From Lachnospiraceae bacterium (lineage in GTDB: Bacteria; Bacillota; Clostridia; Lachnospirales; Lachnospiraceae): a DNA stretch of 64,000 bases. The notes beneath the pieces were generated by a model. It was not told where the DNA came from and made no database searches. It saw only the letters and a program-made list of their open reading frames with translations. This document shows, piece by piece, positions 52,016 to 63,856 of this stretch; the first letter of the stretch is position 1, and each line of letters starts with the position of its first letter. The translations under genes were made by a program, and so were the position numbers. The DNA lies in contig JAILQX010000051.1 in assembly GCA_024698705.1 (NCBI GenBank), positions 1 through 64,000 of the forward strand, given 5' to 3'.

Positions 52016-52296
52016 AATAAAATAAACCGTTGACGAAGAGGAGTAACTTAGGATACTTGCTTTCAAGAGAGTACGGGGTGGTGGGATCCGTACAGTAAAG
52101 GCTTAAGCGAATGGACTTCGGAGGGCATGGTGGAAAGCATTCGTGTGAGTATATCATGACGAGAGGCATACGTTAGTTGCCGAGGATATGTTGGTATCTT
52201 GCTAAGCGCATAGAGCGATCTATGAAACAGGGTGGCACCGCGGATTTTGTATATTCGTCCCTGACAGTATTTTTATACTGTCAGGGATTTTTTATT
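52016..52296 (+). promoter_or_regulatory. Tryptophan T-box leader
   Basis: The T-box AGGGTGGCACCGCG is at 52229-52242. In Stem I, CGAAG near 52034 pairs with CTTCG at 52116-52120; AGGAGTAA just after the 5' arm is the loop-E side, and TGG at 52112-52114 followed by A sits where the specifier codon belongs. UGG is the tryptophan codon, matching the operon downstream. The terminator is CCCTGACAGTA-TTTT-TACTGTCAGGG then TTTTTT at about 52259-52292. Uncharged tRNA-Trp would bind and prevent termination. Confidence 0.93.
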
Positions 52297-61401: not shown

Positions 61402-62766
61402 TCAGATCACCGGAAGTGTGCTGAGTGAAGCCTTCAGGTCATCGTCTGTAGGGATGTAGTCATCCATAAGACCGTCATGGAAGCTTTCGTAAGCAACCAT
61501 ATCGAAGTAGCCTGTACCTGTAAGACCGAATACGATGGTCTTCTCTTCGCCGGTTTCCTTGCACTTGAGTGCTTCGTCGATGGCAACCTTGATAGCATGT
61601 GAGCTTTCGGGTGCCGGAAGGATACCTTCAACTCTTGCAAATCTTTCAGCGGCACGGAATACGTCAGTCTGAACTGCCGTAACGGCTTCCATAAGACCGT
61701 CATCGTATAACTGAGAAAGAATAGAACTCATACCATGATATCTCAGGCCGCCTGCGTGGTTGGGTGAAGGAATGAAGTTGCTTCCGAGTGTGTACATCTT
61801 TGCGAGAGGACAAACCATACCTGTATCGCAGAAGTCGTATGCATATTTACCGCGTGTAAGACTCGGACATGATGCGGGCTCCACTGCGATGATCCTTGTA
61901 TCGGCAAGACCTTTGATCTTGTCTCTCATGAAAGGAGCGATAAGTCCGCCGAGGTTTGAACCGCCGCCTGCGCATCCGATAACGATGTCGGGCTTGATGC
62001 CGTATTTTTTGAGCGCGATCTCGGTTTCAAGACCGATGACACTCTGATGAAGAAGAACCTGGTTAAGGACGCTGCCGAGTACATATCTGTAGCCGGGTGT
62101 CGTTGTGGCAACTTCAACAGCCTCTGAAATAGCACAGCCAAGGCTTCCTGTTGTTCCGGGATGAGCCTCAAGTATCCTCTTTCCAACTTCCGTAGAGGTT
62201 GAAGGAGAAGGTGTAACGCTTGCTCCGTAAGTTCTCATAACCTCACGTCTGAAAGGCTTCTGCTGATAAGAAACTTTAACCATGTATACTTTACAGTCAA
62301 GGTCAAAATATGAACAAGCCATAGAGAGAGCAGTACCCCACTGACCTGCACCTGTTTCCGTTGTAACACCCTTAAGACCCTGCTTCTTAGCGTAATAAGC
62401 CTGAGCGATAGCGGAATTCAGTTTATGAGAACCGCTTGTGTTGTTGCCTTCGAACTTGTAGTAGATCTTAGCCGGTGTGCCGAGTGCCTTTTCCAAGAAA
62501 TAAGCACGAACGAGCGGTGACGGACGATACATCTTGTAGAAGTTGTATACTTCCTCCGGGATCGGGAAATAAGCCGTTTCATTGTCCAGTTCCTGCTTTA
62601 CGAGTTCTTCACAGAATACCGGTGCAAGCTCTTCGGCCTTCATGGGTTCATGTGTACCGGGGTTGAGAAGCGGAGCGGGCTTATTGATCATGTCTGCTCT
62701 TAAGTTGTACCATGCTTTGGGCATCTCATCTTCGGTGAGGTAGATCTTGTAAGGTATTTTTTCCAT
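61402..62766 (-). CDS. trpB2: Tryptophan synthase beta chain 2 (TrpB2)
   Basis: 454 residues from the ATG at 62766 with AAGGAAGGA 9 bases upstream; the frame extends to 62814 but through the terminator. TrpB2 features: long N-terminal extension (YKIYLTEDEMPKAWYNLRADM), RPSPLVRAYFLEKALG, PLP Lys in NTSGSHKLNSAIAQAYYA, ETGAGQWGTALSMACSYF and GCAGGGSNLGG. TrpB2 enzymes make tryptophan from free indole and serine without TrpA. It is separate from the operon copy and has its own attenuator. Confidence 0.95.
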   Translation of the reverse strand: MEKIPYKIYLTEDEMPKAWYNLRADMINKPAPLLNPGTHEPMKAEELAPVFCEELVKQELDNETAYFPIPEEVYNFYKMYRPSPLVRAYFLEKALGTPAKIYYKFEGNNTSGSHKLNSAIAQAYYAKKQGLKGVTTETGAGQWGTALSMACSYFDLDCKVYMVKVSYQQKPFRREVMRTYGASVTPSPSTSTEVGKRILEAHPGTTGSLGCAISEAVEVATTTPGYRYVLGSVLNQVLLHQSVIGLETEIALKKYGIKPDIVIGCAGGGSNLGGLIAPFMRDKIKGLADTRIIAVEPASCPSLTRGKYAYDFCDTGMVCPLAKMYTLGSNFIPSPNHAGGLRYHGMSSILSQLYDDGLMEAVTAVQTDVFRAAERFARVEGILPAPESSHAIKVAIDEALKCKETGEEKTIVFGLTGTGYFDMVAYESFHDGLMDDYIPTDDDLKASLSTLPVI

Positions 62767-62811
62767 TTGTCTTGTTCCTTCCTTTGAAAATGTTGTTGAC
62801 GGGTTTCCTGA

Positions 62812-62847
62812 CAAAAAATTAAGCGGTGCAGGTTAACCTGTACCGCT
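62812..62847 (-). terminator. Attenuator terminator of trpB2 leader
   Basis: On the minus strand AGCGGTACAGG, loop TTAA, CCTGCACCGCT, then TAATTTTTT: 10 pairs with one A-C mismatch and a U tract, about 50 bases ahead of the trpB2 start. Confidence 0.88.
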
Positions 62848-62897
62848 TTTAATTCATGAGATATCACAAATCAATGCACTGCAAATTAACCCTACAT

Positions 62898-62951
62898 TCA
62901 TGTAAAGTTAAAGCGCCACCACGAATTTGCATTGTTAAGTGATCTGAACAT
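62898..62951 (-). CDS. Trp leader peptide (trpL-like)
   Basis: 17 codons reading MFRSLNNANSWWRFNFT then TGA. The start ATG at 62951 has GGAG 9 bases upstream. Codons 11 and 12 (62921-62916) are both TGG, tryptophan, a residue used at about 1 percent in proteins. It lies between a promoter and a strong terminator ahead of a tryptophan gene, the E. coli trpL arrangement. Leader bases 62924-62934 (codons 6-9) can pair with 62872-62887, giving the competing structure needed for attenuation. Too short for standard gene finders. Confidence 0.82.
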   Translation of the reverse strand: MFRSLNNANSWWRFNFT

Positions 62952-62985
62952 AAATCTAATCTCCATGTCATTTAAAACTGTTTAG

Positions 62986-63014
62986 ATGATATCATCATAT
63001 CTTCCATAAGTCAA
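62986..63014 (-). promoter_or_regulatory. trpB2 promoter with -10 palindrome
   Basis: On the minus strand TTGACT, 17 bases, TATCAT. The perfect 12-bp palindrome GATGATATCATC (62985-62996) covers the -10 element and may be an operator. Transcription would begin near 62979, about 28 bases before the leader ATG. Confidence 0.7.
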
Positions 63015-63095
63015 CAGGTTACCGCAAATTGACGGCTTTGTTGTGGCTATGGGTGTATTGTGATAGGATAAACATTGATCGGAGGAGTGATAGAA

Positions 63096-63814: not shown

Positions 63815-63856
63815 TTTTATTTACCCCTTGACATGGTAGGTAAATGGTTGTATAGT
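63815..63856 (+). promoter_or_regulatory. Promoter with operator near window end
   Basis: TTGACA at 63828-63833, 17 bases, TATAGT at 63851-63856. ATTTACC (about 63819-63825) and GGTAAAT (about 63838-63844) form an inverted repeat around the -35, a likely repressor site. Confidence 0.7.

Follow-up and report, generated by a model that had tools for sequence, protein, structure and literature searches.

The trpB2 gene described here, which encodes a TrpB-like PLP enzyme, is very probably controlled by a ribosome-mediated transcription attenuator that turns the gene on when charged tRNA-Trp is short, as the Trp member of a family of codon-swapped leaders in Clostridia. The elements of this leader, which lies on the minus strand of the window (i.e., the whole 64,000-nt stretch of DNA that was analysed), their recurrence in relatives, the match between sensor codons and downstream genes, and the stall-dependent switch in the fold of the window leader were all obtained by computation. 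A leader-peptide attenuator with Trp codons had been proposed in a first-pass annotation of this DNA, and the proposal is now supported by leaders with two or three tandem Trp codons (WW or WWW) upstream of 10 other trpB2 genes, by conserved pairing, and by sensor codons that track the downstream gene.

Architecture and predicted folding of the trpB2 leader

Every element named in the first-pass annotation (promoter, GGAG site, 17-codon ORF with tandem TGG codons, and terminator ahead of trpB2) is present in the sequence. Transcription would start from a TTGACT-17-TATCAT promoter (62986-63014, minus strand, as are all features of the leader), with its -35 box at 63014-63009, its -10 box at 62991-62986 and a 17-nt spacer. 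A Shine-Dalgarno GGAG motif (62961-62964) precedes the presumably translated leader ORF MFRSLNNANSWWRFNFT (62898-62951, stop codon TGA), homologues of which occur in relatives and whose codons 11 and 12 are the tandem UGG codons of the putative sensor (62916-62921). Absent from the earlier description is a strong hairpin predicted by folding, P1 (TTAACTTTACA / TGTAGGGTTAA), whose 5' arm (TTAACUUUACA, 62901-62911) overlaps the codons for FNFT, whose 3' arm is UGUAGGGUUAA (62886-62896), and whose loop contains the stop codon of the leader ORF. The complementarity already noted between leader codons and a downstream segment holds, and corresponds to an outer stem, P0, in which CAAUGCA (62928-62934) pairs with UGCAUUG (62872-62878). 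A second small hairpin separates P1 from the intrinsic terminator, a stem-loop of -15.6 kcal/mol with one A.C mismatch (62821-62848) followed by the U-tract AAUUUUUU (62813-62820). Between the terminator and the ATG of trpB2 at 62766 lies a ribosome site. The trpB2 gene itself (61402-62766, minus strand) encodes a product matching NF009057 with 682.1 bits (cut-off 366) and TIGR01415 with 580.5 bits (cut-off 518.85).

The predicted antiterminator is an 11-bp duplex of -10.7 kcal/mol between GGGUUAAUUUG (62882-62892) and CAGGUUAACCU (62830-62840), the latter spanning the end of the terminator 5' arm, the loop and the start of the 3' arm. The key segment to be freed by stalling had earlier been placed at 62872-62887; the decisive one is instead 62892-62882. 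The pairing of AGGGTTAA with TTAACCTG, previously put forward as a candidate antiterminator, comes close to the duplex found but is not identical to it.

According to the proposed mechanism, a ribosome supplied with enough Trp would clear both UGG codons, after which P1, along with the outer P0, would re-form, or the ribosome itself would cover 62892-62882; the terminator would then fold and transcription would end before trpB2. With little Trp, the ribosome would stall at UGG-UGG and its footprint would open the 5' side of P1, allowing the freed GGGUUAAUUUG to pair with CAGGUUAACCU of the nascent terminator and the polymerase to read on.

Partition-function folds were computed on a transcript cut after the terminator loop, with stalling represented by a ribosome that has the first UGG in its A site and masks the 13 nt starting at the first base of this codon. 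Under this mask, antiterminator pairing in the window leader rises to 0.96, from 0.07 without a ribosome. The antiterminator, whose formation excludes that of the terminator, is hence favoured by a stall at the sensor codons. With 2 nt of the stem still to be transcribed, the stalled state shows 0.91 antiterminator, and the terminator reaches 0.66 without a ribosome and 0.63 with a ribosome at the stop codon. Once the full stem is available, the stalled state is mixed, with 0.34 antiterminator and 0.55 terminator (0.08 and 0.90, respectively, in the orthologous leader of genome G237, see below), so that kinetics would have to decide the outcome, as they do in known attenuators. In the stop-codon state, the antiterminator is at 0.51 early on in the window leader and at 0.88 in that of G237, the terminator being ahead 4 nt later.

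The folds of several relatives fit the switch model less well than that of the window leader. Compared with the absence of a ribosome, a first-codon stall increases the antiterminator in all 11 Trp leaders, to at least 0.9 in four of them and to 0.20-0.60 in the remaining seven, and in L075, L076, L078, L086, and L088 the stop-codon state lies above the first-codon stall at the transcript length folded. Half of the Tyr/Phe leaders (8/16) prefer the antiterminator (at least 0.84) even without a ribosome; in 15 of these 16 leaders the segment is covered by a ribosome at the stop codon, and the untranslated state may thus matter little there. P1 is misplaced in some Tyr/Phe rows of the fold table, which affects its last-codon and P1 columns but not the states quoted here.

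Related leaders with other sensor codons

A DNA search of the same genome with the leader gave a 70% match at C35:79376-79461 (E 0.016), corresponding to the 3' part of a paralogous leader, MMKNIGYIANYYYFYFYFTGSDSKVNLRCSSL (MMKNIGYIANYYYFYFYF...), located 16 kb from the window trpB2 leader and upstream of DAHP synthase and prephenate dehydrogenase genes (aroF-tyrA). A pattern of the leader that contains no codons occurs in only three places in 397 genomes of the family, namely the window, the C35 aroF leader, and the orthologous trpB2 leader of G237, MKRLYDIANKFWWRLTKY, and the reversed pattern used as a control had no match in the same genomes. A similar codon-free pattern retrieved 18 loci from the genome_contigs collection (described as covering 84,980 species), 15 of which are leaders, 14 with Tyr/Phe runs and one, that of G237, with WW; all are in Clostridia, Lachnospiraceae, or Bacillota/Firmicutes MAG records. 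No such leader was seen at the other three loci (L074, L085, and L087; Mucilaginibacter twice and Lentisphaeria), which were taken as chance matches, nor at L071 and L072, two matches to the R1 model (E 0.06-0.08), itself devoid of codons, that lie where a coding region ends.

The Tyr/Phe leaders found with the pattern precede either aroF-tyrA, in records titled Lachnospiraceae or Lachnoclostridium, or an operon for a sodium symporter, a phenylacetate-CoA ligase (paaK) and an ACT-domain protein, in nine records titled Clostridiales, Clostridia, Bacillota, or Firmicutes; at some of the latter loci (e.g., L075, L076, or L082) the sequence ends soon after the symporter. Eight of these nine loci, which come from other Clostridia/Bacillota records, also hold trpB2 nearby on the other strand, preceded by a separate WW or WWW leader (e.g., MVIIKSMTNGYWWWRSFTTDKL), L079 being without trpB2 in its 8 kb. 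The eight Trp leaders were found with a W-rich ORF filter that was applied to all eight trpB2-holding loci, none being dropped. Together with the window and two loci of the family (L032 and L037), this brings to 11 the trpB2 genes preceded by a WW or WWW leader.

Further members were sought with R2, a covariance model of 27 leaders that includes their coding part and whose matches for this reason lean towards aromatic codons. Among the 397 family genomes, R2 matched 11 at E up to 0.01 and revealed eight new leaders, upstream of paaK (two), aroF (three), pheA (two), and aroD (one), while six new leaders, all upstream of aroF and from families f5, f13, f32, and f42, were found at E up to 0.001 in 361 genomes of the class. 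That all 14 new loci precede aroF, pheA, paaK, or aroD is independent of the codon lean of R2. In leaders with enough upstream sequence, a Shine-Dalgarno-like four-base motif is present in 26/26 and a promoter matching at least 9 of 12 positions and no more than 140 nt from the leader ATG in 24/26 (27 tried, one being too short); the promoter rule is loose, with spacers of 16-19, and three of the 24 have a doubtful AAAAAT -10 box.

Across the resulting 41 leaders, WW is found in all 11 trpB2 leaders versus none of the 30 leaders of other genes. Sensor runs are of Tyr/Phe codons upstream of aroF-tyrA and of the symporter-paaK operon, and of Phe codons upstream of pheA and paaK: the 16 aroF leaders contain 72 Phe, 66 Tyr, and 4 Trp codons, compared with 24 Phe and 1 Tyr in the four upstream of pheA and paaK. 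Apart from the sensor codons and the FT encoded by P1, the leader peptide differs between lineages. Three aroF leaders, L077, L091, and L099, carry a Trp codon within their Tyr/Phe run (YYWFFF, FFYWYYFYF, and YFYWFFF, respectively), as if control of DAHP synthase read all three aromatic amino acids; a Trp codon is likewise present in the Tyr/Phe run of the symporter-operon leader L089.

This tracking of genes by codons also bears on how the ribosome would sense tryptophan. A leader acting in the manner of TnaC, in which free tryptophan rather than a lack of charged tRNA-Trp arrests the ribosome and sets trpB2 on or off, would equally place a Trp-containing peptide before a Trp-related gene, and stalling by the nascent peptide would be expected to leave the same footprint. 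It is nonetheless very unlikely, as what is kept is two or three tandem codons while the peptide varies outside the sensor codons and the P1-coding FT, and as homologous leaders with Tyr/Phe or Phe runs fitting their own genes indicate codon counting rather than a defined arrest peptide; in addition, induction by Trp of a Trp-making enzyme would be odd.

With regard to structure, P1 is paired in 97.3% of cells in an alignment of 27 leaders (A4), and the antiterminator in 93.0%, versus 17.8-49.8% when slid; the terminator figure of 82.1% is lowered by an alignment shift. At the seventh pair of P1 (72/83), AU occurs in 8 leaders, UA in 7, and CG in 6, with 5 unpaired and 1 gapped. Cell counts and covariation scores are above those of shuffles (0 to 2 of 500). 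The two measures least moved by relatedness, double-change pairs and further pair types, are not above shuffles, either for P1 and the terminator (308/500 and 483/500 shuffles, respectively) or for the antiterminator (135/500 and 103/500), and covariation therefore lends moderate support. Compensatory cases seen by eye are GGUCG/CGACC (L037), GGUUGA/UCAACC (L095), and AGAGUAA/UUACUCU (L096).

The ability of the freed segment to pair with the terminator was also compared between native and permuted combinations in 35 of the 41 leaders, with hand-chosen stretches for eight of them and the class leaders L185-L190 left out. The native duplex has a mean of -11.8 kcal/mol versus -10.6 kcal/mol when permuted, and none of 5000 permutations was as good. 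Individually, the native segment is better than 95% of shuffled segments in 26/35 leaders; the nine outside the best 5% are L086 (0.06), L097 (0.07), L078 (0.09), L098 (0.12), L089 (0.29), L037 (0.30), L100 (0.44), L102 (0.52), and L101 (0.66).

The members of the proposed family share an RNA scaffold and differ in their sensor codons, with Trp for trpB2, Tyr/Phe for aroF-tyrA and the symporter-paaK operon, and Phe for pheA and paaK. It is likely that a single scaffold of Clostridia was re-aimed several times in this way, by sensor-codon exchange alone, including towards an operon of arylacetate type, that it has taken the position held by T-boxes upstream of trpB2 in close homologues, and that one genome reads tRNA-Trp both by a T-box and by a stalled ribosome 10 kb apart. 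One scaffold with swapped sensor codons would constitute a natural experiment on specificity change in codon-reading regulators, and also on the replacement of T-box and leader peptide by one another before one gene, with two kinds of Trp sensor that can be compared side by side in one genome. Such leaders may additionally aid annotation when Phe-only runs precede paaK or Tyr/Phe runs a sodium symporter-paaK-ACT operon, where they would point to salvage of aromatic amino acids from arylacetates.

T-boxes and leader peptides upstream of trpB2

The window contains a T-box at 52021-52265 on the plus strand (RF00230, 115.6 bits), the only match to RF00230 in the window, upstream of trpEGDCFBA, genes named from their best NCBIfam matches that are also on the plus strand, about 10 kb from the trpB2 leader. 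Two kinds of Trp sensor are therefore present 10 kb apart in one locus. T-boxes read tRNA directly, without translation. UGG occupies the specifier position of this one, GAA-UGG-A, according to the GAA...XXXA rule given in the available text of PMC5794164.

The search for TrpB2 covered the genus (20 genomes) and the family (397 genomes, of which 216 were matched at 1e-100), and 121 upstream regions were sorted: the window, 11 loci of the genus, 29 of the family, and 80 further listed matches, two without upstream sequence being skipped. Among the matches listed, 56 regions have a T-box motif, three a Trp leader (the window, counted by hand as the sorting script keeps the longest start, G237, and G173), and 62 neither, meaning that nothing was found by these filters. 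The T-box count relies on a motif regular expression, and 34 of the 56 also show the GA(A)TGGAC motif expected of a UGG specifier. The T-box is hence the commonest recognised control of trpB2 in the sampled family regions, and a Trp leader is, as the first-pass annotation had remarked, unusual in Firmicutes. R2 gave only three weak matches (E 0.17-0.75) in the 80 further upstream regions. A filter for WW and a Shine-Dalgarno motif also flagged ORFs within two of the 121 regions, both T-box regions (L049 and L150), so chance WW ORFs do occur.

Orthologues without the frame, regarded in the first-pass annotation as evidence against an attenuator, are indeed the rule, at 118 of the 121 regions listed and 11/11 in the genus, yet the set bearing the leader is coherent. 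Vertical conservation of the leader within the genus is ruled out, since none of the 11 other trpB2 loci has a WW leader (one has a T-box). In a tree of 46 TrpB2 proteins, from which the partial or cut L013, L014, and L078 were left out, the window protein falls in a set of six (97/94; bootstrap not fully settled) that comprises three Trp leaders, two T-boxes, and one neither. The tree implies three changes (two or three in bootstraps), and fixes neither their direction nor the number of Trp-leader origins.

The frequency of T-boxes (56 of the 121 regions listed) and the existence of a conserved RNA segment could suggest that trpB2 is instead controlled by an RNA that binds a ligand or a tRNA, i.e., a riboswitch or a T-box-like element, and that the ORF is fortuitous. 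This reading is slightly less probable still than arrest by free tryptophan: sensor codons follow the downstream gene across 41 leaders, P1, the antiterminator, and the terminator account for much of the conserved RNA, and no Rfam family comes near its gathering score with the window leader. The best match of 62780-63020 at E up to 5 is a snoRNA family with 20.4 bits (gathering 35), with no T-box, and no known leader class of Rfam, Trp_leader and others included, matched at the gathering score. Rfam searches of L063, L032, L079, and L090 at E up to 1 returned only two sub-gathering matches, and those of L098, L185, L187, L190, and L082 at the gathering score none.

The attenuator reading is further strengthened by chance tests, in which the combination of leader elements goes beyond chance. 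The promoter alone does not, as 10 promoter-like matches were found versus 8.1 expected in 4 kb, and a simple terminator scan (consensus, no mismatches) listed none versus 3.5 expected, the terminator of the leader having presumably escaped it because of its stem mismatch. An ORF of 8-40 codons with WW and a Shine-Dalgarno-preceded ATG appears in only 2/3000 dinucleotide shuffles of the 248-nt region, and in 4/1030 overlapping 248-nt windows of the stretch, two of which contain this ORF and two a single other ORF. The stall-dependent fold switch was obtained in 0/400 shuffles of the middle part. Hence, least probable of all is an ordinary leader with a chance WW ORF and a terminator that lacks regulatory meaning or belongs to another transcript, since, even if most homologues have no leader and chance WW ORFs occur (L049 and L150), shuffling produces the ORF and the switch in only the 2/3000 and 0/400 cases just given and homologous WW leaders are found at 10 other trpB2 genes.

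Relation to known leaders and further observations at these loci

Leader-peptide attenuation is a known kind of control, of which E. coli trpL, the ribosome-mediated trp attenuator of Proteobacteria, is an example. Trp attenuators have also been predicted in Actinobacteria such as Corynebacterium and Streptomyces, including a candidate before C. diphtheriae trpB2A, as the gene is named in the available text of that report (PMC1262725). The trp attenuators of Proteobacteria and Actinobacteria have in common with the window leader a leader ORF carrying two or three UGG codons in tandem, an alternative pairing, and an intrinsic terminator, but sequence and geometry differ, as far as can be judged. 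Unlike in these systems, the antiterminator of the window takes up the terminator loop and both inner arms, and the leader would govern a stand-alone trpB2 gene next to a trp operon under T-box control and is homologous to Tyr/Phe and Phe leaders.

Although unusual in Firmicutes, leader peptides have precedents there, with His leaders (PMC2965389, PMC9413887), the Leu leader of S. aureus ilv-leu, supported by mutant and reporter data (PMC5794164), and a candidate Phe leader of aroF. As far as the available texts of these reports go, the His and Leu cases likewise show leader-peptide attenuation in place of the T-box of relatives, but they concern other amino acids, genes, and lineages, with no codon-swapped sister leaders described. 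The aroF candidate is the uORFC-13-1 motif, with 24 representatives in Acholeplasma and environmental sequences, in which aroF is preceded by a terminator and by a candidate leader ORF containing one or more Phe codons (PMC8632094). In these features its description resembles the aroF leaders found here, and the available text mentions no Trp or trpB2 form. The gene terms sought in PMC2494555 were not found there. T-boxes upstream of trpB2 or trp genes of the same family likewise sense whether tRNA-Trp is charged, but the window leader has no match to the RF00230 model. A Trp leader before trpB2 in Firmicutes and a single scaffold with swapped aromatic codons were found neither in Rfam nor in the literature searched, a search that is poor in subscription journals and returned no paper on either.

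A second small ORF with a Shine-Dalgarno motif was seen by eye between the terminator and trpB2 at 7/11 Trp-leader loci (L037, L075, L076, L078, L086, L088, and L089; e.g., MKLYTKSWRTRAGI and MIGLTKAWRSARRNN), and not in the window, G237, L082, or L084. A GC hairpin (GGCGC...GCGCC) has the one Trp codon of this ORF at its base, and the ORF might provide a second Trp-dependent control step.

The Tyr/Phe leader followed by genes for a sodium:solute symporter, phenylacetate-CoA ligase, and an ACT-domain protein was observed at L075, L076, L078, L079, L082, L084, L086, L088, and L089, trpB2 being divergent from this operon in 8/9 of them. This arrangement looks like a salvage route from arylacetates to aromatic amino acids; the available text of PMC7356843 mentions that Phe is made from phenylacetate in the rumen.

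Lastly, a 25-bp element, TTTACCTACCNTGTCAAGGGGTAAA, occurs at two places in the assembly when up to 3 mismatches are allowed, both of them exact: at 63820-63844 of the window, before a MetN-like ABC ATPase gene (partial, 108.6 bits), and at G000:C35:79189-79213, between the aroF leader and a divergent gene of O-acetylhomoserine sulfhydrylase type. This element could serve as an operator for sulfur amino-acid genes.
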